Source: Muribaculaceae bacterium
GTDB lineage: Bacteria > Bacteroidota > Bacteroidia > Bacteroidales > Muribaculaceae
Length of the DNA stretch: 56,956 nt
Direction: 5' to 3'
Assembly: GCA_017462345.1 (NCBI GenBank)
Contig: JAFTRI010000030.1
Coordinates: 1-56,956, forward strand
Both the position numbers and the translations under genes were made by a program. Shown here piece after piece: positions 7,047 through 22,382 of this stretch (positions are counted from its first letter, which is position 1; each line of letters starts with the position of its first letter). Under the pieces are notes generated by a model, which ran no database searches, was not told the DNA's origin, and saw only the letters and a program-made list of their open reading frames with translations.

Positions 7047-7085
7047 GGGGCGGCATCGGTTACGACCGGTGTCGCCCCTTGTTTT
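7047..7085 (+). terminator. Rho-independent terminator after the amidase modules
   Basis: A 14-bp stem with two G-T wobble pairs (7047-7060 with 7065-7078) encloses a TACG tetraloop of the stable YNMG class and is followed by TTGTTTT. It closes the propeller/amidase unit and separates it from the next block. Confidence 0.85.
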
Positions 7086-7263: not shown

Positions 7264-10245
7264 ATGAGGCTGATTGCGATAGTGTTCTTGGCTGCGGTCG
7301 GGGCGTTTCCCGTCTGTGGGCGTAATGTCATGCCGCTGAAAGTGGCAGGGGACAGTATCGGGGCTTGCATCATGGCTTCATTGCCGCCGAATACTTCGGT
7401 GGGTAAGGTAAAGGTTGAGAAGATTACGGTAAACGACAAGTGCCGCATGGTAAATGCAGATTTTAACGACGTGATGGGCTATCTTCCGATAAATGAAGAT
7501 GAGGTGTCCAAATTGAAAGGGATTGTCGCTAAATATCTTCCTGCAAAATATAGCGGTTATTCTGTGGAATTGAGTGTGAATGGCGTCAAAATCGACAGCT
7601 TGATACTCTTTGCCGGAAGAACTGTCGTTTCACCGACCGAGGACGGATATTTTGTGCAGGCCAAAAACGGAGTTAATGCACCGGCCGGTCTTGACGGTTG
7701 TAATATTGCAATGTGGCAAAGTCACGGATGGTATTTTGAACCGAAATTGAATCGATGGGAATGGCAGCGTGCAAGAATATTCCAGACGGTTGAAGACCTT
7801 TATACGCAGAGCTATGTGATGCCATTTCTGATGCCGATGCTCGAGAATGCCGGAGCATACGTTATAAGCCCGCGTGAGCGGGATGTGAATGCCAATGAGG
7901 TTATTGTTGACGGGGACGGGGGATATGCCTTTGACGGGTATCGTGAAACGGCGGGGCAAGAAAAATGGTCAGATGTAGCAACAAAAAGCGGATTCGCTTT
8001 TGCAAAAGCCATATTGGAAAATGGAGACAACCCGTTCAGGATGGGAAAGGCGAGGGCGGTGAATGCTGTCGCTGATGAGTCGGAAGCGTCCAGCGCGATG
8101 TGGTATGCCGACATTCCTGAATCGGGGACGTATGCTGTGTATGTTTCGTACGTGTCGTTGCCTAACAGTGCAAGCGATGTAAAGTATCGGGTTACGAGCC
8201 GTGCCGGTGTTAAGGAATATGTCGTAAACCAAAAGATGGGTGGCGGAACATGGGTATATCTTGGACATTTCCCGTTTGATGAGGGACAACAGGATTTGCC
8301 TGTCGTTGAAATGTCAAATGTGTCATCGGTTGCCGGGGCTGTTGTCAGTGCTGATGCCGTGAAGATAGGGGGCGGCATGGGGAATGTCGCAAGAAAGGTG
8401 AAGGGCGGTGAGGACGGAATAGACTACCGTTATGTCGTTAGCGGCTATCCGCGATTTACCGAGGGCGCACGTTATTGGTTGCAGTGGGCCGGTGTCCCGG
8501 ATTCGGTGTTTACACCGTCGGATTATGAAAACGATTATACTGATGACTACAAGTGTCGCGGCTCATGGGTGAATTATCTCGCTGGCGGTTCTTCGGTATT
8601 GCCCGGGCAGGAAGGTCTCGGGATTCCTGTCGACTTGTCATTTGCATTCCATACCGATGCCGGAACAACAATGAATGATACCATTATCGGTACTTTGGGG
8701 ATATATTACACCAAAGGATCCCGATATGCCAACGGGACATCCCGTTATGCCTCGAGAGACTTTACCGATGTCATTATGACAAATATTGTGAGGGATATAC
8801 GTGCCGGATATGAACCGGACTGGACGCGTCGGGGAATGTGGGACAAGAGCTACTATGAAGCACGTGTGCCCGAGGTCCCGTCGATGCTTCTTGAATTGTT
8901 GTCGCATCAGAATTTTGCCGATATGAAATACGGGCTTGATCCGACGTTCCGTTTCACGGTGAGTCGTGCAATCTACAAAGGGATGCTGCAGTTTATAGCG
9001 CATCGAGACAATAGGGCGTATATAGTGCAGCCGTTGCCGGTGAGGGGATTTGCTATTGACCGGAAGAGCGGGTCAACCTATCGCCTGAGTTGGAAGGAGA
9101 CAGTGGATACCCTTGAGAATACAGCCCGTCCTGATTATTATATTGTGGAGGAACGAGTGGGACGTGGAGAGTTCATTGAGATAGCCCGGGTTGAACATCC
9201 CGAATATGATGTTGCCATAAAGGATGGTGAGATACATTCTTATCGTGTTATTGCAGGAAACAGAGGTGGTGTGAGTTTTCCGTCGGAAGTGCTTGCCCTA
9301 TGCGATAAGGGAGATAAGGCTCCTGTCCTTATCGTGAACGGATTTACCAGAATCTCCGCTCCTGACACGTTTGATTCGGGAGAGATTGCAGGGTTCTACG
9401 ACGTGAAAGATCATGGCGTTCCATATATTACGGACATAAGTTTTATCGGCTCCCAGACGGAGTTCCGCCGCAGTATCCCCTGGATGGACGATGATGCCGC
9501 AGGATTCGGTGCAAGCCGTGCCGACTATGAGACGGAGGTTATTGCAGGAAACACGTTTGACTACGTTGCAATGCACGGAGAATCTGTTTCTGTAGCCGGT
9601 CATCCGTTTATATCGACAAGTGTCGAAGCGTTTATGGAATCGTCGTCACAACCCGGTATAGTGGATTTGATTTTAGGAAAACAGAAAGAGACGGTAGTGG
9701 GGCGTGGAGCATACGGCACAAAATACAAGACATTCCCTGCCGCACTGCAGGACAGGATCGCATATCTGAGCGGGAACGGATGCAGTATCTTTGTGTCGGG
9801 TTCTTATATTGCCACAGACTTGTGGGATAACGGGCGTGCAACAGAATCGGATCGCGAATTTGCCAGCAAGATTCTCGGATATAAGTGGAGAACCGGACAG
9901 GCGTCGGTGACAGGAGAGGTCAATCATGTGCAATCGCGTTACGGTATTTTCGATGACGGATGTTATTCGTTCCATTCGGAATTGAACAGCGAATGTTATG
10001 TCGTAGAGTCGCCGGACTCATTTTATCCTGCTGATGACAAGCGAGGGGCAACTATCCTGAGATATTCCGAAAATAATCTTGTTTCCGGAACTGCATTTGA
10101 TGCCGGAAAGTACCGTGTGGTAGCAATAGGATTTCCGTTTGAGACCATTTCCGACGAATCAGGACGTGTCAAACTGATGGGTAAGGTGCTCGGATTCCTG
10201 TCGGAAAAGAATAAACAGAATGTAAAAAGCAAAAAAACAAAATAA
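7264..10245 (+). CDS. Secreted amidase-like protein with inserted golvesin-type domain ('xanthan lyase' family)
   Basis: A start at ATG 7264 gives 993 residues with a signal peptide (MRLIAIVFLAAVGAFPVCG); the longer frame from TTG 7228 adds 12 residues that do not fit one. Amidase-like metal and catalytic positions are visible but spread out: His154 (WQSHGWYF), Glu178 (QTVEDLY), His463 (AFHTDAG) and Glu544 (LLELLSHQN). Between the first and second halves (~245-380) lies a golvesin C-terminal-like beta-sandwich (YADIPESGTYAVYVSY, TWVYLGHFPF, VSADAVKIGGG). A fibronectin-like domain follows (~585-680). Databases often call relatives 'xanthan lyase', but I see no lyase motif; cleavage of peptidoglycan cross-bridges or stem peptides is more likely here. 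It lacks a T9SS tail, unlike the upstream amidases. The next gene starts 31 nt later with no terminator between. Confidence 0.7.
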   Translation: MRLIAIVFLAAVGAFPVCGRNVMPLKVAGDSIGACIMASLPPNTSVGKVKVEKITVNDKCRMVNADFNDVMGYLPINEDEVSKLKGIVAKYLPAKYSGYSVELSVNGVKIDSLILFAGRTVVSPTEDGYFVQAKNGVNAPAGLDGCNIAMWQSHGWYFEPKLNRWEWQRARIFQTVEDLYTQSYVMPFLMPMLENAGAYVISPRERDVNANEVIVDGDGGYAFDGYRETAGQEKWSDVATKSGFAFAKAILENGDNPFRMGKARAVNAVADESEASSAMWYADIPESGTYAVYVSYVSLPNSASDVKYRVTSRAGVKEYVVNQKMGGGTWVYLGHFPFDEGQQDLPVVEMSNVSSVAGAVVSADAVKIGGGMGNVARKVKGGEDGIDYRYVVSGYPRFTEGARYWLQWAGVPDSVFTPSDYENDYTDDYKCRGSWVNYLAGGSSVLPGQEGLGIPVDLSFAFHTDAGTTMNDTIIGTLGIYYTKGSRYANGTSRYASRDFTDVIMTNIVRDIRAGYEPDWTRRGMWDKSYYEARVPEVPSMLLELLSHQNFADMKYGLDPTFRFTVSRAIYKGMLQFIAHRDNRAYIVQPLPVRGFAIDRKSGSTYRLSWKETVDTLENTARPDYYIVEERVGRGEFIEIARVEHPEYDVAIKDGEIHSYRVIAGNRGGVSFPSEVLALCDKGDKAPVLIVNGFTRISAPDTFDSGEIAGFYDVKDHGVPYITDISFIGSQTEFRRSIPWMDDDAAGFGASRADYETEVIAGNTFDYVAMHGESVSVAGHPFISTSVEAFMESSSQPGIVDLILGKQKETVVGRGAYGTKYKTFPAALQDRIAYLSGNGCSIFVSGSYIATDLWDNGRATESDREFASKILGYKWRTGQASVTGEVNHVQSRYGIFDDGCYSFHSELNSECYVVESPDSFYPADDKRGATILRYSENNLVSGTAFDAGKYRVVAIGFPFETISDESGRVKLMGKVLGFLSEKNKQNVKSKKTK

Positions 10246-10276
10246 TTAATCATTTAAAAACATAATAACATTTACA

Positions 10277-11737
10277 ATGAAAACTATCAATTGTTTTATC
10301 CCTTATGCTGATGCTCAACAAGTGAAAGCAACCGTTGACGGTCTTCGTCAGAATGCTTTGGTGTCGAAAATCTTCCTTCTTGCTACAGATGCGAATGCTG
10401 CTGCCGTTGAAGGTTGTGAAATAATCACAGTCGACACGCTCAACAGCTCAGCAACCATGAAAAAAATTGCTGTTGCAACTGACGGTGACTACACTCTTCT
10501 CTACACTAAGTATAACAACCTTGTGATGGGTTATCTTGCTCTTGAACGTATGGTTCGTCTTGCGAATGACTCTAAGGCTGCTATGGTTTATGCAGATAAC
10601 TATCAAATCGTTGAAGGTAAAAAAACTAATGCTCCCGTTATAGATTATCAGTTCGGTTCACTTCGCGATGATTTCAACTTCGGTTCAGTTCTATTCTTCT
10701 GCACAAAGGCATTGAAAGCCGCTGCTGCCGAAATTGATGCTGAATATACTGCAGCCGGTCTTTATGACCTTCGTTTAAAAGTATCTCGTCAAGGTGATCT
10801 TGTTCATATTAACGAATATCTTTACACGGAAATTGCTCTTCCTGTAGCGACAGAAGGGGAATCTCACTTTAGCTACGTAGATCCCAAGAACCGTGGTGTG
10901 CAGATTGAAATGGAGCAGGCTTGTACCGACCACCTCAAAAAAATCGGAGGTTACCTTGAACCAAAATTTGAAGAAATCAACTTCAATCAAGGTGATTTTG
11001 AATATGAAGCATCGGTTATCATTCCTGTCCGTAACCGTGTTCGCACAATTCGGGATGCGATCAAGAGTGTACTTTCTCAAAAAACCGATTTCAAGTTCAA
11101 CCTCATCATTATTGATAATGGTTCTACTGACGGTACTACTGAGGCTATAGATGAATTTAAGAACGACGAACGTCTTATCCACATTATTCCAGAACGCGAT
11201 GACCTCGGTATCGGTGGTTGTTGGAACATGGGTGTAAATCACCCCAAATGCGGTAAATTTGCCGTTCAATTGGATAGCGACGATGTTTACAGTAATGAAA
11301 ACACTCTCGCTACTATGGTTAAAGCATTCTACGACCAAAATTGCTCAATGGTAGTAGGTACTTATATGCTTACCGACATCAATATGCAAATGATCCCCCC
11401 GGGTGTAATCGATCATAAAGAGTGGACTCCTGAAAATGGTCGCAATAATGCACTTCGTATCAATGGTCTTGGTGCTCCACGTGCATTCTATACTCCAATG
11501 CTTCGTGAAATCAATGTACCTAACACAAGTTATGGTGAAGACTATGCACTTGGTCTTGCATTCTCTCGTCGTTATCAAATCGGTCGCGTGTATGACGTAG
11601 TTTACTACTGCCGCCGTTGGGAAGATAACTCTGACCACGCTTTGGACATCAACAAGACTAATGCCAACAACCTTTACAAGGACCGTATCCGCACTTGGGA
11701 ACTCCAAGCTCGTGTCGAATTAAACAAAAACAAATAA
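10277..11737 (+). CDS. Cytosolic glycosyltransferase family 2 protein, tandem GT-A domains
   Basis: 486 residues, no signal peptide or membrane segment. The C-terminal half (~245-480) is a standard GT2 domain: SVIIPVRNR, LIIIDNGSTDGTTE for nucleotide-sugar binding and the DxD-type QLDSDDVYS for the metal. The N-terminal half (~1-240) has the same rhythm in weaker form (CFIPYADAQQVKATVDGL, MVYADNYQI), so it looks like a second, degenerate GT-A domain. Acceptor and donor are unknown. It opens a run of tightly spaced genes (12 nt to the next) that ends with murQ, so a role in handling recovered amino sugars is plausible but unproven. Its codons are far more biased to C/T-ending forms (CGT, GGT, CTT, GCT) than those of the upstream genes, suggesting high expression. 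Confidence 0.75.
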   Translation: MKTINCFIPYADAQQVKATVDGLRQNALVSKIFLLATDANAAAVEGCEIITVDTLNSSATMKKIAVATDGDYTLLYTKYNNLVMGYLALERMVRLANDSKAAMVYADNYQIVEGKKTNAPVIDYQFGSLRDDFNFGSVLFFCTKALKAAAAEIDAEYTAAGLYDLRLKVSRQGDLVHINEYLYTEIALPVATEGESHFSYVDPKNRGVQIEMEQACTDHLKKIGGYLEPKFEEINFNQGDFEYEASVIIPVRNRVRTIRDAIKSVLSQKTDFKFNLIIIDNGSTDGTTEAIDEFKNDERLIHIIPERDDLGIGGCWNMGVNHPKCGKFAVQLDSDDVYSNENTLATMVKAFYDQNCSMVVGTYMLTDINMQMIPPGVIDHKEWTPENGRNNALRINGLGAPRAFYTPMLREINVPNTSYGEDYALGLAFSRRYQIGRVYDVVYYCRRWEDNSDHALDINKTNANNLYKDRIRTWELQARVELNKNK

Positions 11738-11749
11738 TTCCTTACGGTT

Positions 11750-12679
11750 GTGGTAAATACTGAAATTGTAAACAAATTTATTGGTGAGCAGTTGGCCGAG
11801 TGGCCGACTGCCGCCGATAATTTCAAAGCTCTCGAAGGCGTCAAGGTAAAAGAGCTTGATGTTGATGGAATGAAAATCAAAGTGCAATTTAATCCTGCAC
11901 GCATCGTTTCTTCGTCGGCAAAAGTTGACGCCAAGTCTTTGAAAGAGCGTAAATGTTTTCTTTGCACTGAAAATCGTCCCTCAGTGCAACGTGGTATTGA
12001 TTGGGGTAATGGTTATATAATCCTTATTAACCCGTTCCCTATTTTCCCCCGACATTTGACAATTCCCGATAAAGGACATGTGGACCAGCTCATAAAAGGC
12101 CGTATCGCCGATATGATGTCGTTGGCTCATGATCTTGACGGATACACTGTTTTCTACAATGGTCCCAAGTGTGGGGCTTCTGCTCCCGACCACATGCACT
12201 TTCAAGCAGGCAACAGCGATTTTCTCACAATAGGCGAGGCTCTCGAAAATGCCGAGTTGAAGACTGTCGTTACCGATGGTGATGCAGTGCTGGCCTTGTG
12301 TGATACATTGCCGTTGAATGTATTTGTTATTGATGCCACCGACCCGCAAGCAGGTGAGCGTTTGTTTGCTCGTTTGTATGATGCAATACCTGTGCCGGAA
12401 GGTGAAAAAGAGCCCATGATGAATCTGCTCTGTTTTGCTACCCCCGCAGGTGTGCGTCTTGTGGTAATTCCTCGTAAACAACATCGTCCGTCGTTCTACG
12501 GAACCGAGGGAGACGATAAAATGTTGCTCAGCCCCGCATCGGTTGATATGGGTGGCGTGTTCATCACTCCGCTTGAAAAAGACTTTGTGAAACTTGATGC
12601 TGAGTTGGTAAAGGTAATCTTCAACGAGTTGTGCTTGAGCAAAGCCGATGTTGAAGAAATTGTCAACAAGATAAACTAA
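11750..12679 (+). CDS. DUF4922 protein, HIT/GalT-like nucleotidyltransferase fold
   Basis: 309 residues from a GTG start. Two features point to the HIT superfamily, as in galactose-1-phosphate uridylyltransferase and Ap4A phosphorylase: a CxxC pair (CFLCTENRPS, ~66-69) that may bind zinc, and the HxHxQ active-site motif DHMHFQAGN (~147-154), where the middle histidine would carry the nucleotidyl group. LINPFPIFPRHLTIP matches the fold's conserved strand before the active site. The family is common in Bacteroidetes and has no settled function that I know of. Location between a glycosyltransferase and a SpoIID protein in the salvage operon suggests a nucleotide- or sugar-phosphate-transferring step; that is inference. 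Cytosolic. Confidence 0.7.
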   Translation: MVNTEIVNKFIGEQLAEWPTAADNFKALEGVKVKELDVDGMKIKVQFNPARIVSSSAKVDAKSLKERKCFLCTENRPSVQRGIDWGNGYIILINPFPIFPRHLTIPDKGHVDQLIKGRIADMMSLAHDLDGYTVFYNGPKCGASAPDHMHFQAGNSDFLTIGEALENAELKTVVTDGDAVLALCDTLPLNVFVIDATDPQAGERLFARLYDAIPVPEGEKEPMMNLLCFATPAGVRLVVIPRKQHRPSFYGTEGDDKMLLSPASVDMGGVFITPLEKDFVKLDAELVKVIFNELCLSKADVEEIVNKIN

Positions 12680-12688
12680 GATTCTTTC

Positions 12689-14005
12689 ATGGAAGAACCT
12701 AAAATCAAGGTAGGCATTATGAGTGCCGCCGAAGTGCATTTTACACTTGACGGTCAATATAATGTGCTCGACAAAACCATCAGTGGCAGCCAAGTTGCTA
12801 CCACCGATGGTAATGTTATTATTTGGAACGGCCAAAAATTTGAGCAATTGGAATTTGTCCCAGTTGATGAGGCATCAGCGTCTTTTGAACTTCAGGATGT
12901 CACGATTGGGGTCAATTTCCACTGGGAACGTAAAGAAACACAGCGTTTTAAGGGTGCACTCCGACTCATTGTCGAACATGGGAAAATCACACCCGTGAAT
13001 ATCCTTGGAGTTGAAGACTATTTGTTAAGCGTAATATCATCGGAAATGAGTGCTACGGCATCTCTCGAATTGCTTAAGGCTCATGCCGTAATTTCCCGTA
13101 GCTGGTTGCTTGCGCAAATTGACAAAAACAAGCGCATAGAGATGTCGGGAGAGAAATATGTTGCGGCCGAGAACATTGAAGGAGAGTTGATTAAATGGTA
13201 TGACCGTGAAGACCATGTCAACTTTGACGTGTGTGCCGATGACCACTGTCAACGTTATCAGGGTATTACCCGTGCATCTACTCCTCAGGTTGCCAAGGCA
13301 ATCGAAGCGACTCGCGGTCAAGTGTTGATGGACGGTGAAAACCTTTGTGACGCTCGATTCTCAAAATGCTGTGGTGGCGTTTATGAAGAATTTGAAAACT
13401 GCTGGGAACCGATTCACTACAACTATCTTGTGGCACGTCGTGATGGAGTGAACGAGCTCGATTTCCCAAATCTCACGATAGAAAAGAACGCCCAAGAGTG
13501 GATACTATCTCGTCCCGAGGCTCATTGCAATACTGCCGACGCTGAAATCTTATCTCAGGTTTTGAACAACTACGATCAGGAAACGACCGATTTCTACCGC
13601 TGGACTGTCTCTTATAGCCAAGATGAAATCGCCAAATTGGTAAAAGAACGTTCCGGTACAGATTACGGCAACATTGTTGACCTTGTCCCCGTAGCCCGTG
13701 GAACATCAGGACGTCTCTATAAACTGAAAATCGTGGGAACTAAGAAAACCCTGACAATAGGTAAGGAACTTGAAATACGCCGAACCCTTTCTCCCTCTCA
13801 TCTCTACAGCTCTGCTTTTGTAGTAGAGAAAGGTGAAAATGACGCTAACGGACTTCCGTCTTCCTTTACACTCAAAGGAGCCGGTTGGGGTCATGGCGTA
13901 GGGTTGTGTCAGATCGGTGCCGCTGTTATGGGAGCCAAAGGCTATTCCTACGAAAAGATATTGTTGCATTATTTCATTGATGCTTCTATCAAGAAATTAT
14001 ATTAA
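12689..14005 (+). CDS. SpoIID/LytB-domain protein without signal peptide
   Basis: 438 residues. The SpoIID domain is clear: VEDYLLSVISSEMSA with the expected catalytic Glu119, LLKAHAVISRSW, and the C-terminal GWGHGVGLCQIGAAVMGAKGYSYEKILLHYF. SpoIID of Bacillus is a lytic transglycosylase acting on glycan strands stripped of stem peptides, and relatives are known as amidase enhancers. Two oddities: the N-terminus (MEEPKIKVGIMSAAE) has no signal peptide, and only 9 nt separate it from the previous gene, so no longer start is possible; and the middle carries a cysteine-rich insert (CADDHC ~198, SKCCGGVYEEFENC ~236) that could bind metal. It may act in the cytoplasm on imported muropeptides. Confidence 0.85.
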   Translation: MEEPKIKVGIMSAAEVHFTLDGQYNVLDKTISGSQVATTDGNVIIWNGQKFEQLEFVPVDEASASFELQDVTIGVNFHWERKETQRFKGALRLIVEHGKITPVNILGVEDYLLSVISSEMSATASLELLKAHAVISRSWLLAQIDKNKRIEMSGEKYVAAENIEGELIKWYDREDHVNFDVCADDHCQRYQGITRASTPQVAKAIEATRGQVLMDGENLCDARFSKCCGGVYEEFENCWEPIHYNYLVARRDGVNELDFPNLTIEKNAQEWILSRPEAHCNTADAEILSQVLNNYDQETTDFYRWTVSYSQDEIAKLVKERSGTDYGNIVDLVPVARGTSGRLYKLKIVGTKKTLTIGKELEIRRTLSPSHLYSSAFVVEKGENDANGLPSSFTLKGAGWGHGVGLCQIGAAVMGAKGYSYEKILLHYFIDASIKKLY

Positions 14006-14031
14006 TAACTTATAAACCAATCATTAGAATA

Positions 14032-15393
14032 ATGAATAAAGTAACAAAACGCAATCCATGGGCTTGGATTCCCACGCTCTATTTTGCACAGGGTATACCA
14101 TTCATCTTTATCAATATGGTGACAATGGTGCTCTTCACTCAGCTTGGCATGTCAGAGACCGATGCCACCCTTTATACCGGCTGGCTTTATCTGCCTTGGG
14201 TAATCAAGCCTTTCTGGGGCCCTATTGTGGATATTATACGTACAAAACGCTGGTGGACCGTTACAATGCAGATATGTGTGGCAATAGGTCTTGCTGCAAT
14301 AGCATTTACACTACCGTTGCCTAACAAAGAAGAAATTGCAGAGGGACTGCCCGTGAGTGCATTCATGCTGTGTCTTTTCTTCTATTTTATCACTGCATTC
14401 TGTTCTGCTACTCACGATATTGCATCCGACGGATTCTATATGATTGCCCTTAATACCTCGGAACAGAGTATGTTTGTGGGTATCCGTTCCACTTTCTACC
14501 GTTGTGCCAATGTGTTCGGACAGGGTGGACTTGTGATGCTTGCCGGTTTTCTTGAAGCACAGACAGGCAGTGTATCTACAGCATGGCAGTACACGGTTAT
14601 AATCTGTGCGGTATTCTTTGCTGTGGTATCAATATGGCATGCATTCATTCTTCCGACCCCCTCGGCCGACAAGGCTGTTGGCGGAAGTGATACCAAGAAG
14701 AAAAGTGTCGGTGATATTTTAAAAGAATTTTCCGGCTCATTTGTAACATTCTTCCAAAAGAAGCATGTTGTGCTTGCAATGTTGTTTATGCTTCTTTATC
14801 GTTTGCCTGAAGCTCAAGTGGTAAAACTTTGTCAGCCATTCCTTCTTGCAGCGCGAGATGCCGGCGGTCTCGGAATGACACAGACTGAAGTCGGTTTCGC
14901 ATACGGTACACTTGCAATTATCGGTCTTACAATTGGTGGTATCATCGGAGGTATTTGTGCATCTAATGGAGGCTTGAAAAAATGGATTTGGCCAATGGCT
15001 CTTGCTACATCCCTTAACTGTGTGGCTTATATTATTCTATCAAACTTCCAGCCCGACTATGCATTGTGGGGTGACCGCATGGTGATTTTCTCTGCTATTA
15101 TTCTCGAACAATTTGCCTACGGATTTGGTTTCACGGCATTTATGCTTTATATGATGTACTTTGCAGATGGACCATACAAAACTTCACACTATGCAATTTG
15201 TACCGCATTCATGGCTCTTGGTATGATGTTGCCTGGTATGGCTGCCGGTTGGATTAAGGAAAGTCTCCTTGGCAATTCTTACATCATGTTCTTCTGGTGG
15301 GTACTTGCTTGTAACGTTGCAACATGGATTGTAACAGCACTTGTACGCAAGCATATAGATCCCAAGTATGGAGCAAAGGAAGTAAAGGAATAA
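14032..15393 (+). CDS. ampG: AmpG-like MFS muropeptide permease
   Basis: 453 residues, ~12 hydrophobic segments of the major facilitator superfamily. The start NPWAWIPTLYFAQGIPFIFINM and the later GWLYLPWVIKPFWGPIVD and ATHDIASDGFYM are typical of the AmpG/PAT branch, which in proteobacteria carries GlcNAc-anhydroMurNAc-peptides across the inner membrane. The neighbours (SpoIID upstream, NamZ-type muramidase 4 nt downstream) agree with import of wall fragments. The exact cargo cannot be read from sequence. Confidence 0.8.
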   Translation: MNKVTKRNPWAWIPTLYFAQGIPFIFINMVTMVLFTQLGMSETDATLYTGWLYLPWVIKPFWGPIVDIIRTKRWWTVTMQICVAIGLAAIAFTLPLPNKEEIAEGLPVSAFMLCLFFYFITAFCSATHDIASDGFYMIALNTSEQSMFVGIRSTFYRCANVFGQGGLVMLAGFLEAQTGSVSTAWQYTVIICAVFFAVVSIWHAFILPTPSADKAVGGSDTKKKSVGDILKEFSGSFVTFFQKKHVVLAMLFMLLYRLPEAQVVKLCQPFLLAARDAGGLGMTQTEVGFAYGTLAIIGLTIGGIIGGICASNGGLKKWIWPMALATSLNCVAYIILSNFQPDYALWGDRMVIFSAIILEQFAYGFGFTAFMLYMMYFADGPYKTSHYAICTAFMALGMMLPGMAAGWIKESLLGNSYIMFFWWVLACNVATWIVTALVRKHIDPKYGAKEVKE

Positions 15394-15397
15394 CAAT

Positions 15398-16639
15398 ATG
15401 AAAAAGCTATCGATACTTTTAACGCTGGTTCTATCTGTGTCACTTATGGGAGTGGCACAGGTGAAACCGGGTGTCGAGGTGCTTCGCGACGGTGGTTTTG
15501 AGCAGTTGAAAGGCAAGCGTGTGGGGTTGATTACCAATCCCAGCGGTGTTGACAACAATCTTGTCTCGACTATAGATATACTTGCCGCTGCCCCCGGAGT
15601 TAAACTCAATGCGCTTTACAGCCCTGAACATGGTGTGCGTGGTGACGTTCATGCCGGAGCCAAGGTCGATACTTATACCGACAGCAAGACAGGCGTTACT
15701 GTCTATTCGCTATATGGCAAGAACAAGAAGCCGTCGGCAGAGATGCTTGCAGATGTGGATGTGCTTGTCTATGATATTCAGGACAACGGTTGCCGTTCAT
15801 TTACGTATATCAGCACAATGGGTCTGTGTATGGAAGCATGTGCCGAAAATGGCAAGGAATTTATGGTACTTGACCGTCCCAATCCTCTTTCGGGCTTGAA
15901 GGTTGAGGGAAATATTGTAGAAGAGGGGTTCTTTTCGTTGGTGAGCCAGTTCCCTATCCCGTATCTTTACGGACTGACACCCGGAGAGCTTGCGCTCATG
16001 CTCAATGACGGTATGCTTAAAGATGGGGTGAAGACAAATCTGACGGTTGTCCCGATGGACGGATGGAAACGTTATATGACATTCGAGCAGACCGGTATGC
16101 CGTGGATTCTCCCGTCTCCTCACCAGCCTTATCCACAGTCGGCGGTGTATTATCCTACTACAGGAATAATCGGTGAACTGTACAATATCTCGATAGGGGT
16201 AGGATATACGATGCCGTTCCAGTTGATATGTGCCTCATGGATTGATGCCGATAAATTCTGTGAACGTCTCAATGCACTGAATCTTAAAGGAGTAATTTTC
16301 CGCCCTATTCACATCAAGCCGTTCTATAGCATGGGTAAGGGGGAGAATATTCAGGGTGTCCAACTTTATGTCGCGGATGTGCTTGGTGCAGAACTGACCA
16401 TGATCCAGTTCCATGCAATGGAAATATTGGCTGAAATGTACCCCGACAAGCGTCTGCTCGACGAGGATGGCCAAGGGACATTGGGTAACCGGTGGAACAT
16501 GTTTGACAAGGTGTGCGGAACCGACAAGATACGCTTGCAGTTCTCAGAAAGATATAAGGTTTCCGACATCATGGGTTACTGGAACAAGGATGTCGAGCCG
16601 TTTAAAGCCAAATCAAGTAAATATTATTTATATAACTAA
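15398..16639 (+). CDS. namZ: Exo-beta-N-acetylmuramidase, NamZ family (DUF1343, GH171)
   Basis: 413 residues with a signal peptide (MKKLSILLTLVLSVSLMGVAQ), so periplasmic or exported. The DUF1343 pattern is complete: GVEVLRDGGF, KGKRVGLITNPSGVD, the SPEHGVRGD segment that carries the family's proposed catalytic glutamate, DVLVYDIQDNGCRSFTYISTM, DRPNPL, MPWILPSPHQPYPQSAVYYP. Members from Bacillus subtilis (YbbC) and Tannerella forsythia release terminal MurNAc from the non-reducing end of peptide-free glycan. Such glycan is what amidases generate, so the enzyme fits after the amidases and before MurNAc uptake by the MurT homologue at 19470. Length matches the family. Confidence 0.85.
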   Translation: MKKLSILLTLVLSVSLMGVAQVKPGVEVLRDGGFEQLKGKRVGLITNPSGVDNNLVSTIDILAAAPGVKLNALYSPEHGVRGDVHAGAKVDTYTDSKTGVTVYSLYGKNKKPSAEMLADVDVLVYDIQDNGCRSFTYISTMGLCMEACAENGKEFMVLDRPNPLSGLKVEGNIVEEGFFSLVSQFPIPYLYGLTPGELALMLNDGMLKDGVKTNLTVVPMDGWKRYMTFEQTGMPWILPSPHQPYPQSAVYYPTTGIIGELYNISIGVGYTMPFQLICASWIDADKFCERLNALNLKGVIFRPIHIKPFYSMGKGENIQGVQLYVADVLGAELTMIQFHAMEILAEMYPDKRLLDEDGQGTLGNRWNMFDKVCGTDKIRLQFSERYKVSDIMGYWNKDVEPFKAKSSKYYLYN

Positions 16640-16660
16640 GATTAAACAACAGCGTCACTT

Positions 16661-19456
16661 ATGGAATTGTCGTACAAACAATATATTGACGATATCAAGA
16701 ATGTAATTGCGCAGGAGCGTATTTATACCGATGATTTACGTTGTCTCGCGTGGGGCACGGATGCAGGATTTTATCGAAAGATTCCCCGGATTGTGGTGCG
16801 TTCAAAGAATGAGCAGGAAGTCTCCCATCTCCTTTCCACCGCAAGCCGTCATAAATTACCTGTGACGTTCCGTGCAGCGGGGACAAGTCTGTCGGGACAG
16901 GCCATCAGTGACTCAATACTAATAGTAGCCGGAAAGCATTGGGAGGGATATAAGATCGCTCCCGATGCTTCTACTATTACTCTACAACCCGGTATAATAG
17001 GTAGCCGGGTCAATGAATACCTCGCTCCTTACGGACGTATGTTTGCTCCTGACCCCGCATCCAAGAATTCGGCAATGGTGGGCGGCATTGTAATCAATAA
17101 TGCCTCGGGAATGAATTGCGGAACTCATGCCAACAGTGATAAAATACTCAAGTCGGTGCGTATCGTTTTTGCCGACGGAACAGTACTCGATACGGGTGAT
17201 GACCGTTCGCGGGCATTATTTGCACGTATGAAACCCGGGTTTATTGACGGCATAATGCAGTTACGTGATGAAATATGTGCCGATAAGGAACTTGTAGAAC
17301 GGATATTATACAAGTACAGCATAAAGAATGTTACCGGGCTGAATCTGCTGCCGTTTGTGATATTCCGCGATCCCTTTGATATTATTGCCCACTCGATGGT
17401 GGGATCGGAAGGGACTCTCGCGTTCCTTTCGGAAATTACAGTCAACACGTCTCATCTGTACCCTTGTTCGGCAAGTGCAATGCTATATTTCAGTGACCTG
17501 AAAGAGGCTTGCAAGGCTGTGGTCGCGATGAAAAAAGGTCCGGTATTCGGTGCAGAACTCCTTGATAAAAAGTCCCTTTCGGCCGTTAATGACACTACCG
17601 GTGAAGGTCTTACTGCGGTATTGACCGAGACCAAAGCAGATACCTCGGAGGAATTACAGAAGAATATCAATGAGATACTTGGGATACTCAAGCCTTTCAA
17701 TCTGTATAAGCCGGCTTACTTTACCGACAAGCCTGAGGAATATTCGGAATATTGGAAAATACGGTCAGGTATATTCCCGTCGGTTGGCGGTACACGTCCG
17801 CTTGGTACTACTGTGCTTATAGAGGATGTGGCATTCCACATAGATGACTTGCCCGAGGCAACGGTGGAGCTGCAGGCCCTGTTGCAGGAAAACGGTTATG
17901 ATGATGCCTGCATTTATGGTCACGCATTGGAAGGGAACTATCACTTTATCATATCACAGGCTTTTGATTCAGATGCGGAAATAAAGAGATACAAGAACCT
18001 TATGCTTGCAGTGGAACGCCTCGTTGTGGACAAGTATGACGGTTCGCTTAAAGCCGAACACGGTACCGGACGGAACATGGCACCGTTTGTGCGAAAAGAG
18101 TGGGGTGACAAGGCCTGGTCATTCATGAGACGAATCAAAGAATTGTTTGACCCTCAGAATATACTCAATCCCGGTGTCATATTCAATGATGACCCGGAAT
18201 GCTACATAAAAGGACTGAAACCGCTTCCGCTGACCAACCGCCATGTAGATAAATGTATAGAGTGCGGTTTCTGTGAAGTAAATTGTGTCACATGCGGTTA
18301 CTCACTGTCGGCTCGTCAGCGTATAGTGGCTCAGCGTGAAATCTCCCGTTTACGTGTAACAGGGGAAGATCCGCAACGTCTTGCCCGTTTGGTGAAACAA
18401 TTTGCCAAGCTCGGCAATGAGACGTGTGCAGGAGACGGTCTGTGCAGCACATCATGTCCGATGGGGAATAATACCGGGGAAATGATACATGATCTGCGCC
18501 GGGATAATCTGCCTGCCACAAGCATGGGCTATAAGATAGGAAACTATGCAGCAAATAATCTTAAAACTATAACAGGAGTGTTGCGACCTGTGCTGTCTGT
18601 CGCCAACTTTGCAGGAAAAATATTGGGCGACGGTGGGGTAAATGCCATTGGTGGCGCATTGCACAAAGCCGGAGTCCCTCTTTGGACACCGGCATTACCG
18701 GGGGCATTCTATTCCCCGAAGGAAAAAATCAAGCCTGCCGACAAGAAAGTCGTATATTTTCCGAGCTGTATAAACCAGACTATGGGTGTCTCACGTGAGA
18801 AAGGGGAAAAGATCGCACCTCTTGTAGACACAATAATCAATCTTTGCAATAAGGCGGGATATGAGGTAATATTCCCCAAGGGTATGAAAAAACTGTGTTG
18901 CGGTATGATCTGGGAAAGTAAGGGAATGCCTGATATTGCCGACCGCAAGACCGCCGAGTTGGAAAAAGCATTGCTTGAGGCTTCGGAAAACGGTAAATAT
19001 CCGGTGTTGTGTGACCAGAGCCCTTGTCTGCACCGTATGCGCGACCACATAAAGAGCATGTATCTGTATGAGCCTGCGGAATTCATACATGATTTTCTTG
19101 TTCCGGAACTTACGTTCAATCCTACAAACGAGACAATTGCCGTGCATGTTACATGTTCGTCACGCCGTATGGGGCTGGCTGATAAAATCATCGCTCTCGC
19201 ACGTATGTGTTCCCGCAATGTCCTTGTCCCCACAGAAGTGGGCTGTTGTGGATTTGCCGGTGACAAAGGGTTTATGTTGCCTGAACTGAACAAATATGCG
19301 TTGCGCAAATTGCGTCCTCAGATCGAACAGTCGGGTGCAACGCATGGATATTCCAACAACCGTACTTGTGAGATAGGACTGTCGACCAATAGCGGAATAC
19401 CCTATAAGTCGATTGCCTATCTTGTGAACAGTTGTACCGAATCAAAGAAACAATAA
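16661..19456 (+). CDS. FAD-binding and Fe-S oxidoreductase, probable D-lactate dehydrogenase
   Basis: 931 residues in four parts. An FAD PCMH domain (~40-215) has PVTFRAAGTSLSGQAISDSI and NSAMVGGIVINNASGMNCGT. A FAD-oxidase C domain (~220-500) ends in HGTGRNMAPFV and DPQNILNPGVIF. A 4Fe-4S ferredoxin-type domain has CIECGFCEVNC (~532) and CAGDGLCSTSCP (~588). Two CCG-type cysteine domains of the GlpC/LldE kind follow (YFPSCINQTMG, CCGMIWESKG ~745; VTCSSRRMG, GCCGFAGDKGF ~861). This GlcD-GlpC fusion is common for membrane-associated D-lactate or 2-hydroxyacid dehydrogenases that feed quinones. The MurQ reaction encoded 2 kb downstream releases D-lactate, so the operon supplies both the source and the oxidiser. 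Substrate is inferred from this context; glycolate or 2-hydroxyglutarate remain possible. Confidence 0.82.
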   Translation: MELSYKQYIDDIKNVIAQERIYTDDLRCLAWGTDAGFYRKIPRIVVRSKNEQEVSHLLSTASRHKLPVTFRAAGTSLSGQAISDSILIVAGKHWEGYKIAPDASTITLQPGIIGSRVNEYLAPYGRMFAPDPASKNSAMVGGIVINNASGMNCGTHANSDKILKSVRIVFADGTVLDTGDDRSRALFARMKPGFIDGIMQLRDEICADKELVERILYKYSIKNVTGLNLLPFVIFRDPFDIIAHSMVGSEGTLAFLSEITVNTSHLYPCSASAMLYFSDLKEACKAVVAMKKGPVFGAELLDKKSLSAVNDTTGEGLTAVLTETKADTSEELQKNINEILGILKPFNLYKPAYFTDKPEEYSEYWKIRSGIFPSVGGTRPLGTTVLIEDVAFHIDDLPEATVELQALLQENGYDDACIYGHALEGNYHFIISQAFDSDAEIKRYKNLMLAVERLVVDKYDGSLKAEHGTGRNMAPFVRKEWGDKAWSFMRRIKELFDPQNILNPGVIFNDDPECYIKGLKPLPLTNRHVDKCIECGFCEVNCVTCGYSLSARQRIVAQREISRLRVTGEDPQRLARLVKQFAKLGNETCAGDGLCSTSCPMGNNTGEMIHDLRRDNLPATSMGYKIGNYAANNLKTITGVLRPVLSVANFAGKILGDGGVNAIGGALHKAGVPLWTPALPGAFYSPKEKIKPADKKVVYFPSCINQTMGVSREKGEKIAPLVDTIINLCNKAGYEVIFPKGMKKLCCGMIWESKGMPDIADRKTAELEKALLEASENGKYPVLCDQSPCLHRMRDHIKSMYLYEPAEFIHDFLVPELTFNPTNETIAVHVTCSSRRMGLADKIIALARMCSRNVLVPTEVGCCGFAGDKGFMLPELNKYALRKLRPQIEQSGATHGYSNNRTCEIGLSTNSGIPYKSIAYLVNSCTESKKQ

Positions 19457-19469
19457 AATAAAAGTAATA

Positions 19470-20627
19470 ATGACTGAAGCGATTAAAAAGCCGAAACAAC
19501 GTCTGCTCGCTCTTGATATCCTGCGAGGTATCACTATTGCAGGAATGATCCTTGTGAATAATCCGGGTTCATGGAGCAATATGTATGCTCCGTTAAAGCA
19601 TGCCGAATGGCACGGGTTGACTCCGACAGATCTCGTATTCCCGTTCTTTATGTTCATAATGGGAATCTCCACATTCATCTCTTTACGGAAATTTGAATTC
19701 AGACTGTCGGGCTCGCTGTTGCTGAAGATATTGCGCCGCACGGTTGTGATTTTTGCCATAGGTCTTGCAATGGCATGGTTTACAAAACTGTGTTACAGGC
19801 TTGCAGCGGGTGAAACGTTTGCCGATGCGGCAAATACGTTTGATACATTGCGTATTCTCGGTGTTATGCCACGATTGGCTCTGTGCTATTGCTTTGCCTC
19901 GCTGATTGTGTTATTGCTGCGTTGCAGGCATATACTATGGGTCGTGTCGACACTCCTGATAGGCTATGCGGTCATATTACTCTGTGGCAACGGGCTTGAA
20001 TTTTCAGAGCAGAGTATAATCTCGGTTGTCGACCGCGCGATACTTGGTGTCGACCACATGTACCATGAGTCTGCCTACGGAGTCAAGTTGGCAATCGATC
20101 CGGAAGGTCTGTTGAGTACTATACCATCCATCGCTCATGTCCTCATAGGTTTTTGGGCAGGGATGAAGATGATGGAAGTCAAGGACAATCATGCCCGGAT
20201 CAACCGTCTTTTCATTATCGGCGCAATATTGATGTTCGTAGGTTTTCTGCTCGATTACGGGATGCCTATCAACAAGAAGATATGGACACCGACATACGCT
20301 CTTGTCACCTGTGGTCTCGCTTCGACACTGTTGGGCTTGCTGATATGGATCATAGATATAAAGGGATATAAGAAGTGGTGCCGGTTCTTTGAGGCATTCG
20401 GGATTAACCCGTTGTTCATGTATGTCCTCGGCGGAGTGTTGGGAACTCTTTTCGGAACAATCAAGATATGTGACATCAGCATAAAGAATTGGGTATATCA
20501 GGAATTTTTAGTGGCTCAGACCGGTGATCCGGTGTTGTCGTCATGCCTCTATGCGATACTTTTTATCGCGTTTAACTGGTCTATAGGTTACATTTTATAC
20601 AAAAAGAAAATATATATAAAGATATGA
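19470..20627 (+). CDS. murT: Integral membrane DUF5009/NagX-type protein, MurNAc transporter MurT homologue
   Basis: 385 residues, about ten membrane segments. The opening RLLALDILRGITIAGMILVNNPGSW and TPTDLVFPFFMFIMGIS is typical of DUF5009 and of heparan-alpha-glucosaminide N-acetyltransferase-like proteins. Gene order transporter-kinase-MurQ is the same as in the three-gene cluster of Tannerella forsythia, where the first gene together with the kinase let E. coli take up MurNAc without a phosphotransferase system. I infer the same role here from order and class, not from alignment. The stop overlaps the kinase start (ATGA), implying translational coupling. The alternative is a true transmembrane acetyltransferase for amino sugars. 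Confidence 0.72.
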   Translation: MTEAIKKPKQRLLALDILRGITIAGMILVNNPGSWSNMYAPLKHAEWHGLTPTDLVFPFFMFIMGISTFISLRKFEFRLSGSLLLKILRRTVVIFAIGLAMAWFTKLCYRLAAGETFADAANTFDTLRILGVMPRLALCYCFASLIVLLLRCRHILWVVSTLLIGYAVILLCGNGLEFSEQSIISVVDRAILGVDHMYHESAYGVKLAIDPEGLLSTIPSIAHVLIGFWAGMKMMEVKDNHARINRLFIIGAILMFVGFLLDYGMPINKKIWTPTYALVTCGLASTLLGLLIWIIDIKGYKKWCRFFEAFGINPLFMYVLGGVLGTLFGTIKICDISIKNWVYQEFLVAQTGDPVLSSCLYAILFIAFNWSIGYILYKKKIYIKI

Positions 20628-21466
20628 AACTAATTGCAGATTGTGGAAGCACCAAGATACAGTGGTGCGTAGTTGAAAATGGTAAAGTAGTCAAGGAGGT
20701 CTTTACTCCCGGGATGAATGCGGTGATGCTCACCGAGGAGGAAATGACCGAACGTATCAGCAAGGAGCTGAAACCTGAGGTAGAGGGCTATACGCTTGAC
20801 AGTGTGTATTTCTATGGTGCGGGATGTATCTCGGAAGAGGTGTGTGCCAATGTGCGTCGTGCCATTGCTGCCAGTGTCCCTGCTCCGGTTATCGAGGTGT
20901 ATACCGACTTGCTTGCTGCCGCACGTGCGCTGTTCGGGAAAGAAGCCGGTATAGCGTGTATTATGGGAACGGGTTCCAATTCTTGCTATTATGATGGAGA
21001 GAAGATTGTTGACAATGTATCTCCACTCGGTTATATTCTCGGTGATGAAGGCAGTGGAGCCGTACTCGGAAAGCTTCTGGTGGGTGATGTGCTCAAAAAG
21101 CAGCTCCCTGAGCCGTTATGTGAAAAATTCCTTGCTCAGTATGACCTTGACCGCATGAAAATTATTCAGAAAGTGTACCGTGAACATCCGGCCAACCGTT
21201 TCCTTGCCTCGGTAACTCCGTTCCTTATCCAGAATATCGAGGAACCGGCAGTCCACCGGTTGGTGTTGAACGCATTCAAGGCATTCTTTGTGCGTAATAT
21301 CGCCAATTATGCCAACTATAAGGATTATAGCATTAATTTCGTCGGTTCTATTGCCTATTATTACCGCGAAGTGCTTGAAGAAGCTGCCGCTGCCGTAGAC
21401 TGCAAGATAGGAAAGATACTTCAGGCACCGATGGAGGGATTGATTGCATATCACACAGAATACTAA
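20624..21466 (+). CDS. murK: BadF/BcrA-type amino-sugar kinase, MurK homologue
   Basis: 280 residues of the ASKHA fold: phosphate-binding loop MKLIADCGSTKIQW, a catalytic-region aspartate in EVYTDLLAAARAL, IMGTGSNSC for the second phosphate loop, and GDEGSGAVLGK. This is the N-acetylglucosamine kinase/BadF family. Sitting between the MurT-like membrane protein (4-nt ATGA overlap) and murQ (27 nt), it should phosphorylate MurNAc, and perhaps GlcNAc, at O6, giving the substrate of MurQ. ATP-dependent, cytosolic. The specificity comes from context; generic annotation would be N-acetylglucosamine kinase. Confidence 0.82.
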   Translation: MKLIADCGSTKIQWCVVENGKVVKEVFTPGMNAVMLTEEEMTERISKELKPEVEGYTLDSVYFYGAGCISEEVCANVRRAIAASVPAPVIEVYTDLLAAARALFGKEAGIACIMGTGSNSCYYDGEKIVDNVSPLGYILGDEGSGAVLGKLLVGDVLKKQLPEPLCEKFLAQYDLDRMKIIQKVYREHPANRFLASVTPFLIQNIEEPAVHRLVLNAFKAFFVRNIANYANYKDYSINFVGSIAYYYREVLEEAAAAVDCKIGKILQAPMEGLIAYHTEY

Positions 21467-21493
21467 TAATATAAATAATAAAAACAGACTAAA

Positions 21494-22315
21494 ATGGCAT
21501 TTGTAAAAATCAGTGAACAACCTTCACTTTACAATGACTTGGAAAAGAAATCGGTGCTGGAACTTCTAACCGATATCAATAATGAGGACAAGAAGGTCGC
21601 TCTCGCAGTGGAAAAGGCTATCCCTCAAATAGAAAAGCTCGTTACTGAAATTGTAAAGCGCATGAAGAGAGGCGGACGTATATTCTATATGGGTGCAGGT
21701 ACTTCGGGCCGTCTCGGTGTGCTTGACGCTTCGGAAATACCCCCTACATACGGTATGGATCCTTCTTGGGTGATAGGACTTATTGCCGGAGGTGATACTG
21801 CATTGCGTAATCCTGTTGAGAATGCCGAGGATGACACCGAGCAAGGATGGAAAGACCTTCAGGAGTTTAATATCAATGACAAGGATACTGTTATCGGTAT
21901 TGCTGCATCGGGAACTACTCCCTACGTTATCGGTGCCCTTAATACCTGTCGTGAGCATGGTATTCTGACTGCTGCTATCACATCCAATCCGGATGCCCCC
22001 ATCTCACAGGCAGCCGATATAGCTATCGAGATGGTTGTGGGTCCTGAATATGTAACCGGAAGCTCACGAATGAAATCAGGGACAGGCCAAAAGATGATAT
22101 GCAACATGATTACCACTTCGGTAATGATTCAGATGGGTCGTGTAAAGGGCAACAAGATGGTTAACATGCAGTTGTCTAATGCCAAACTCGTTGACCGCGG
22201 TACACGCATGGTTGTCGAGGAACTCGGACTCCCATACGATGAGGCAAAACGTCTTCTGCTTCTCCACGGTGAGGTAAAGCGTGCTTGTGATGCCTATCGT
22301 GCCGAAAACGCGTAA
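21494..22315 (+). CDS. murQ: N-acetylmuramic acid 6-phosphate etherase
   Basis: 273 residues, a single SIS domain. MurQ converts MurNAc-6-phosphate to GlcNAc-6-phosphate plus D-lactate. The sugar-phosphate loop IFYMGAGTSGRLGVLDASEIPPTYG holds the acid/base glutamate of the family (DASEIPP), and later come GIAASGTTPYV, TSNPDAPISQAADI and GSSRMKSGTGQKMICNMITT, all diagnostic. Length is slightly short of the ~300 residues of E. coli MurQ because the C-terminal helical part is reduced. Last gene of the salvage operon, followed by a hairpin at 22339. The GlcNAc-6-P formed can enter NagA or wall synthesis; those genes are not in this window. Confidence 0.95.
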   Translation: MAFVKISEQPSLYNDLEKKSVLELLTDINNEDKKVALAVEKAIPQIEKLVTEIVKRMKRGGRIFYMGAGTSGRLGVLDASEIPPTYGMDPSWVIGLIAGGDTALRNPVENAEDDTEQGWKDLQEFNINDKDTVIGIAASGTTPYVIGALNTCREHGILTAAITSNPDAPISQAADIAIEMVVGPEYVTGSSRMKSGTGQKMICNMITTSVMIQMGRVKGNKMVNMQLSNAKLVDRGTRMVVEELGLPYDEAKRLLLLHGEVKRACDAYRAENA

Positions 22316-22338
22316 TCCACTCATTGGTAAAAACATTA

Positions 22339-22382
22339 TTAAGGCTCTATTGGCAATCGGAAAATTGCCGATGAGCCTTAAT
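22339..22382 (+). terminator. Hairpin terminator after murQ
   Basis: Left arm TTAAGGCTC then ATTGGCAAT pairs with ATTGCCGAT then GAGCCTTAA (18 bp, one bulged T and one G-T pair), with loop CGGAAA. There is no long T-run on this strand, so termination strength is uncertain, but the hairpin is the only one between the start of the salvage block and serB. Confidence 0.6.

Follow-up and report, generated by a model that had tools for sequence, protein, structure and literature searches.

The contig JAFTRI010000030.1 of a Muribaculaceae bacterium (assembly GCA_017462345.1; 56,956 nucleotides, referred to in full as the window) carries a ten-gene peptidoglycan salvage block, in which the second to fourth genes encode a family 2 glycosyltransferase (GT2), a DUF4922 protein and a SpoIID/LytB-family protein. 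Genome patterns show that these three proteins, here called the trio, form one cytosolic unit tied to the muropeptide permease AmpG. The trio probably works behind AmpG as a unit independent of AnmK, opening the 1,6-anhydro ring in imported N-acetylglucosaminyl-1,6-anhydro-N-acetylmuramic acid (GlcNAc-anhydroMurNAc) and feeding either AmgK-MurU or MurK-MurQ. That it replaces AnmK is strongly suggested, and the ring opening itself would fall to SpoIID, judging from the chemistry of that family.

The problem that such a unit would solve is known from Tannerella forsythia. According to the passages available from a study of this organism, it grows, with slight impairment, on GlcNAc-anhydroMurNAc and its peptides via AmpG, while free anhydroMurNAc supports growth only to an optical density of about 0.32 (PMC7670621). 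No AnmK ortholog is predicted there, and the authors write that the strategy for AnmK-free use of GlcNAc-anhydroMurNAc "remains to be explored", leaving open how fragments imported by AmpG are processed (PMC7670621). Because the substrate is the disaccharide and not the free sugar, it suits a SpoIID-type active site.

The three families occur together. Among the same 395 Bacteroidota genomes, full-length DUF4922 was present in 57, a cluster-type GT2 in 56, a full-length cluster-type SpoIID in 55, and all three in 54; the DUF4922 set shrank from 63 to 57 on removal of six genomes whose only matches were weak and partial (E 4e-6 to 9e-4). No cluster-type GT2 or SpoIID was found in these 395 genomes outside the 57 that have DUF4922. 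Linkage alone does not explain the co-occurrence, since the 20 kb on either side of DUF4922 hold no SpoIID in 36 of 55 genomes and no GT2 in 9 of 56. The genome that lacks GT2 (G156) has its DUF4922 near a contig end.

Predicted location and gene fusions place SpoIID on the cytosolic side. Open frames with room for an N-terminus were scored for export by whether 12 consecutive residues close to the start were hydrophobic (mean at least 2.0). This mark was reached by 93% of 60 amidase-like proteins and 99% of 76 NamZ proteins, as opposed to 6% of 95 SpoIID, 3% of 121 GT2, 1% of 139 DUF4922 and 4% of 56 MurQ proteins. Thus, as far as the hydrophobicity rule can tell for these 95 frames, SpoIID generally does not carry the signal peptide or anchor expected of a family acting outside the membrane, and the SpoIID of the block appears to be a family member by sequence rather than by known location. 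Fusion is stronger evidence for an unexported SpoIID than this rule. DUF4922 and SpoIID are fused in 9 of 80 named loci, which are the best 80 of 523 confirmed candidates fetched through DUF4922, and also in L084; Pfam places both domains within single open reading frames (ORFs) of L055, L061 and L077. On a 90-row DUF4922 tree this fusion label changes five times, with at least four changes forced by well supported branches. GT2-DUF4922 fusions occur in 3 of 58 loci (L084, L132 and L136) and in a Bacteroides finegoldii record. In L084, from the one-contig genome G394, GT2, DUF4922 and SpoIID all lie in one 1266-residue ORF, with AmpG next. Because SpoIID has no recognisable signal peptide and is fused in several genomes to a cytosolic-type DUF4922, it belongs with GT2 and DUF4922, and its placement by the earlier note among enzymes that cleave the wall from outside is not supported. 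In a variant arrangement (G230, L195), the salvage block keeps GT2-SpoIID-AmpG with no DUF4922 between them, and a different contig (L132) holds an additional GT2 in fusion with DUF4922.

The trio is coupled to AmpG and nearly excludes AnmK. Forty trio and 40 non-trio genomes were compared, chosen by handle number rather than randomly from the 57 positives and from the remainder. AmpG, called at E up to 1e-15 with all matches below the curated cut-off of the family, was found in 40 of 40 trio genomes versus 7 of 40 others; all seven of the latter have both AnmK and MurQ, and in only two of the seven are AmpG and AnmK no more than 20 kb apart. AnmK was found in 17 of 40 trio genomes versus 37 of 40 non-trio genomes. 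Across 198 Bacteroidales genomes, 43 have a cluster-type SpoIID, 135 have AnmK and five have both, which puts AnmK in 5 of 43 SpoIID carriers versus 130 of 155 others. Because genomes with and without AnmK are mixed inside the trio-bearing families f2, f16, f18, f21, f32, f36 and f66, and because family f126 is split between one genome with SpoIID and another with AnmK, repeated loss or replacement looks likely. No AnmK match (PF03702) was obtained in the genome of the window (G000, 84% complete) or in the three trio proteins. Two other candidate relationships were rejected. MurQ as a partner of the trio showed no link (32 of 40 trio versus 33 of 40 non-trio genomes), and canonical GlmU (TIGR01173) reached its cut-off in none of the 80 genomes, trio or not, so that its absence says nothing about whether the trio replaces it; T. 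forsythia has been reported to be without glmS and glmU.

Eight trio genomes have AmpG but neither AnmK nor MurQ. In these eight, and in the genome of the window, an APH-type kinase is neighbour to a MobA-like nucleotidyltransferase, as in AmgK-MurU; by domains, which were checked in two pairs, and by adjacency, interrupted in L186 by a small ORF, these are putative AmgK-MurU pairs. In the eight genomes, the sole visible route from AmpG cargo leads back to UDP-MurNAc, without AnmK. In the pair from the genome of the window (L180:3947-6293, contig C13:12947-15293), the kinase is fused to a RapZ C-terminal domain, and L187 holds a second pair with the same fusion. RapZ is a sensor of glucosamine-6-phosphate, so the fused protein may act as a MurNAc kinase that regulates itself. 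In loci that hold AmpG apart from the trio (L168, L169, L171-L179), a BadF-type kinase and a large GH3 protein often flank the permease, the GH3 protein being fused in one case to a beta-lactamase-type domain.

The active sites of the trio are conserved. GT2 is a tandem GT-A protein whose C-terminal GT2 domain (about residues 244-486) bears the catalytic-type residues, including a DxD-type metal site and a catalytic base, and these are all kept in 74 of 74 aligned rows; mean column identity is 62%, versus 43% for DUF4922. DUF4922 has the fold of the diadenosine tetraphosphate (Ap4A) phosphorylase/GalT superfamily and its H-x-H-x-Q nucleotidyl-histidine motif, and GDP-L-galactose phosphorylases of plants have also been reported with DUF4922. 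SpoIID exceeds the curated cut-offs of PF08486 (83.5 bits versus 23) and TIGR02669 (162.8 versus 83.3), and its residues E119, H176, C182, H186 and C187 are kept in 46 of 46 rows. They align with the catalytic E101 and the zinc ligands of Clostridioides difficile SpoIID, where chain and protein numbers differ by 24 in the match of E119 to E101; chains of the Bacillus anthracis type were also aligned. In published passages, the C. difficile enzyme frees GlcNAc-anhydroMurNAc from peptide-free strands and requires E101 and the zinc-binding residues (PMC6221140). The SpoIID of Waddlia is described as a muramidase on denuded glycans (PMC6635528), and, therefore, the fold can pass a muramyl unit to water.

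These observations suggest the following route. The amidase-like protein and NamZ would act outside the inner membrane, judging from their signal peptides and families, and AmpG would import GlcNAc-anhydroMurNAc and GlcNAc-MurNAc, as described for the T. forsythia permease (PMC7670621). The unexported SpoIID may then open the anhydro bond by adding water or an acceptor sugar. Known SpoIID relatives make or break exactly this bond. GT2 and the phosphorylase-like DUF4922 might supply, activate or recover the partner sugar, which is the least certain step. The freed MurNAc could pass through AmgK-MurU to UDP-MurNAc, or through MurK-MurQ to GlcNAc-6-phosphate and D-lactate, and the dehydrogenase of the block could oxidise the D-lactate released by MurQ.

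Several points weigh against this proposal. The chemistry draws on genome patterns and family analogy and not on biochemistry. If SpoIID alone opens the ring, the need for GT2 and DUF4922 is unexplained, and we know of no lytic transglycosylase that runs backwards as its main job. The hydrophobicity rule is crude, as MurT, a membrane protein, also scores low (2%). Two genomes of one genus, G223 and G384, have GT2 and DUF4922 without a full-length SpoIID, though G384 has a partial match (133 bits) that would raise the all-three count to 55 if included. MurQ shows no link to the trio. Exclusion is not strict, given the five Bacteroidales genomes with SpoIID and AnmK and the 17 trio genomes with AnmK, and both SpoIID and AnmK are missing from 25 of the 198. 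Finally, related genomes are not independent; most families show one state, so that few events may underlie the contrast seen across the order.

Other explanations account for part of the data. SpoIID might leave the cytosol by an unrecognised route and trim denuded strands outside, with GT2 and DUF4922 doing something separate and AmpG importing the SpoIID product. Known SpoIIDs, as described, act beyond the membrane and free the AmpG substrate GlcNAc-anhydroMurNAc (PMC6221140, PMC6635528), and the block does encode an exported amidase and NamZ. However, SpoIID reaches the hydrophobicity mark about as rarely as MurQ and far less often than the two exported proteins, its fusion partners, DUF4922 and in one case GT2, are signal-less proteins of nucleotide-using type, and the near exclusion of AnmK would be left unexplained, all of which makes this account unlikely. 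Alternatively, the trio could make or remodel a glycoconjugate for signalling, storage or the cell surface, with AmpG supplying imported muropeptides as material. The complete retention of the catalytic-type residues of GT2 and its higher conservation relative to DUF4922 are as expected for a specific synthetic enzyme, and of the 20 loci with an unlinked SpoIID, 10 have a GT4 gene (cluster k10) after it. A glycoconjugate role is nevertheless improbable, as it predicts neither the loss of AnmK in trio genomes nor the published ability of AnmK-free T. forsythia to grow on GlcNAc-anhydroMurNAc, and the trio has no constant neighbour that is an export or lipid-carrier gene.

It is also conceivable, but very unlikely, that the three genes merely hitchhike in an ordinary salvage operon and that the exclusion of AnmK reflects clade history. 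The published operon already holds these genes, and common descent gives related genomes the same gene order; this explanation is strained by the retention of SpoIID and GT2 in the genomes where they lie apart from DUF4922, by the recurrence of fusions, and by the mixture of AnmK states within several trio-bearing families. A bolder form of the ring-opening proposal, which is unlikely and put forward as speculation, holds that the trio recovers the energy of the anhydro bond by ATP-free phosphorolysis of the anhydro-sugar (or of the GlcNAc-MurNAc bond), delivering MurNAc-1-phosphate or GlcNAc-1-phosphate to MurU-type enzymes. SpoIID, as a reverse transglycosylase, would join the anhydro-muramyl unit to an acceptor sugar, GT2 in reverse would use a nucleoside diphosphate (NDP) to yield an NDP-amino sugar and the freed acceptor, and DUF4922 would phosphorolyse the NDP-amino sugar to a sugar-1-phosphate. 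The fused order GT2-DUF4922-SpoIID fits substrate channelling in such a scheme.

The operon as such is not new. Passages on T. forsythia Tanf_08345-08385 list xanthan lyase, gtf, gtf, lytB, ampG, ybbC, murT, murK and murQ (PMC5388701), and describe a single transcript by reverse transcription PCR, a mapped start site and control by GppX (PMC5388701, PMC7670621). The window has the same reported content and order, ybbC being of the NamZ family, but adds a FAD/Fe-S dehydrogenase between NamZ and MurT that is absent from the published nine-gene order. The identification of a peptidoglycan salvage block by the earlier note is supported. The novelty lies in genes 2-4. The T. forsythia passages assign no role to gtf, gtf and lytB (PMC5388701, PMC7670621); from gene order alone, Tanf_08355 would be the DUF4922 gene. 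The suspicion that GT2 and DUF4922 carry an undescribed step seems justified, and is extended here to include SpoIID.

Gene order in the named loci is far beyond chance. GT2 and DUF4922 are conserved there with the block, so that the lack of conservation by which the earlier note would have been refuted did not arise. GT2 directly precedes DUF4922 in 79 of 80, and SpoIID directly follows DUF4922 in 67, sharing its frame in the 9 fusions. SpoIID and AmpG are adjacent in 44 and not in 27, a figure that understates adjacency, as the best AmpG tblastn piece often starts mid-gene. The dehydrogenase directly follows NamZ in 56 of 80. MurT-MurK and MurK-MurQ are each adjacent in 54 of 80; in the remaining loci one member of the pair was not found, whether truly absent or cut off where the contig stops. 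Variation is seen in the murTKQ part: L061, L067, L069 and L079 hold just GT2-DUF4922-SpoIID-AmpG, with or without MurK, as do Prevotella sp. oral taxon 299 (L202, without MurK) and B. finegoldii (L201, with MurK). Because such loci lack a full murTKQ, the constant core is those four genes and not MurTKQ.

The best solved relatives of the dehydrogenase by sequence are glycolate oxidase, LctD, D-lactate dehydrogenase and D-2-hydroxyglutarate dehydrogenase. Oxidation of the D-lactate freed by MurQ is therefore plausible for the FAD/Fe-S protein. In one family (f18), a single-domain FAD oxidase akin to it comes directly after DUF4922 or GT2 (L099, L106, L108, L113 and L116, with L160, L161 and L164 for GT2 alone), which pairs the trio with a 2-hydroxyacid oxidase in another way. 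In L043 (3927-4754) and L044 (4486-5310), a second MurK-like gene, 39% identical to MurK of the window, lies just before the amidase gene, placed as K1058 is described in T. forsythia. NZ_OY725790.1, NZ_OY725933.1 and NC_022111.1 are filed as plasmids but look like chromosome pieces (with core genes such as lpxK, thiL and murF; one of 1.77 Mb), and the contig of L056, titled Clostridium sp., bears the Bacteroidales block and groups on the tree with a Muribaculaceae metagenome-assembled genome (MAG), so that its label is probably wrong.

The ORF listing confirmed ten plus-strand ORFs filling 7264-22315 (Table 1), and the tight spacing proposed earlier was reproduced from their coordinates, with gaps of 31, 12, 9, 26, 4, 21, 13, -4 (an ATGA overlap) and 27 nt. 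The mechanical ORF of gene 1 starts at TTG 7228, and ATG 7264 opens a signal-peptide-like stretch. This protein matches Golvesin_C and, weakly, half of Amidase_3 (E 0.0055, below cut-off); its H154, H463 and E544 would be zinc ligands and are retained by 97% or more of the 54 relatives aligned. NamZ is close to the solved B. fragilis-type chain 4k05 (E 1.5e-158), and one of the closest solved chains to MurK, 8ow9, is titled "putative novel MurNAc kinase". The block probably ends at the hairpin after MurQ, which, however, lacks a T run and was not listed by the terminator scan. Between 6500 and 23500 on both strands, terminator-like sites (18 versus 13.6 +/- 4.1 in shuffles) were not clearly above chance, and sigma-70 promoter-like sites (28 versus 31.5 +/- 4.4) were at chance. 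A Bacteroidetes-type promoter pattern gave three matches in the window versus 5.4 expected, none before the block, and a tRNA scan of the window gave none. Upstream, 4532-7024 encodes a further Amidase_3 protein, which has a type IX secretion tail and is separated from the block by the hairpin at 7047-7078; the closest relatives have it in front of the block as well. Ranked by DUF4922, the nearest named relatives are Muribaculaceae MAGs from ruminant guts (up to 93%).

Table 1. Features of the salvage block and its borders in the window
Feature	Position	Strand	Basis
Terminator-like hairpin, T-rich tail, closing the upstream gene	7047..7078	+	Terminator scan
Secreted amidase-like protein, annotated in records as "xanthan lyase"; a golvesin domain interrupts its Amidase_3-like fold	7264..10245	+	Profile search
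GT2 (trio 1), soluble tandem GT-A protein	10277..11737	+	Glycos_transf_2
DUF4922 (trio 2), Ap4A-phosphorylase-like, GalT/HIT superfamily	11750..12679	+	DUF4922 219.8 bits; weak Ap4A_phos_N
SpoIID/LytB-family protein (trio 3), no recognisable signal peptide	12689..14005	+	SpoIID domain
AmpG-family muropeptide permease	14032..15393	+	TIGR00901 148.9 bits, 1.6e-43; curated cut-off of 350 not reached
NamZ exo-N-acetylmuramidase (DUF1343), predicted exported	15398..16639	+	NamZ_N and NamZ_C; N-terminal hydrophobic stretch
Fused FAD/Fe-S 2-hydroxyacid dehydrogenase, probably for D-lactate	16661..19456	+	FAD_binding_4, FAD-oxidase_C and Fe-S domains
MurT, MurNAc transporter family	19470..20627	+	DUF5009/NagX-like, both below cut-off; precedes MurK as in T. 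forsythia
MurK, MurNAc kinase	20624..21466	+	BadF-like, below cut-off; closest solved chains include 8ow9 and 8oqw
MurQ, MurNAc-6-phosphate etherase	21494..22315	+	Three NCBIfam models over cut-off; NF003915 374 bits
Strong hairpin after MurQ	22338..22382	+	-25.2 kcal/mol, z -6.6, 0/200 shuffles as good

The trio offers a concrete three-gene answer to how GlcNAc-anhydroMurNAc is used without AnmK, and it is carried by common gut Bacteroidales, including B. fragilis (L065, L066) and B. finegoldii (L201). If the proposal is true, a large phylum has a second solution to anhydro-muropeptide recycling, and, within the literature searched, a cytosolic job is proposed for SpoIID and a role for DUF4922 for the first time. 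No earlier description of DUF4922 or of a cytosolic SpoIID was found in that literature, subscription papers lying mostly outside the search.

Compared with the AnmK-NagZ-MurQ recycling of E. coli, the proposed route shares import of GlcNAc-anhydroMurNAc by AmpG and cleavage by MurQ to GlcNAc-6-phosphate, but AnmK was not found in the genome of the window (84% complete) or in most trio genomes of the order, and a three-enzyme unit would stand in its place. In Pseudomonas, MurNAc for AmgK-MurU comes by way of AnmK and MupP. The Bacteroidota pairs resemble that system in that an APH-type kinase adjoins a MobA-like nucleotidyltransferase, and differ in that AnmK is missing and, in the two copies checked, the kinase carries a RapZ C-terminal domain. 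With yeast Ap4A phosphorylase Apa2 (4i5t), DUF4922 shares the fold over 262 residues and the H-x-H-x-Q motif, but at 18% identity and as the cytosolic partner of a glycosyltransferase. SpoIID, in turn, has the family assignment, catalytic glutamate and zinc-type residues of the lytic transglycosylases of B. subtilis, C. difficile and Waddlia; unlike these, it has no recognisable export signal, is coupled or fused to DUF4922 and GT2, and occurs in non-sporulating Bacteroidota.

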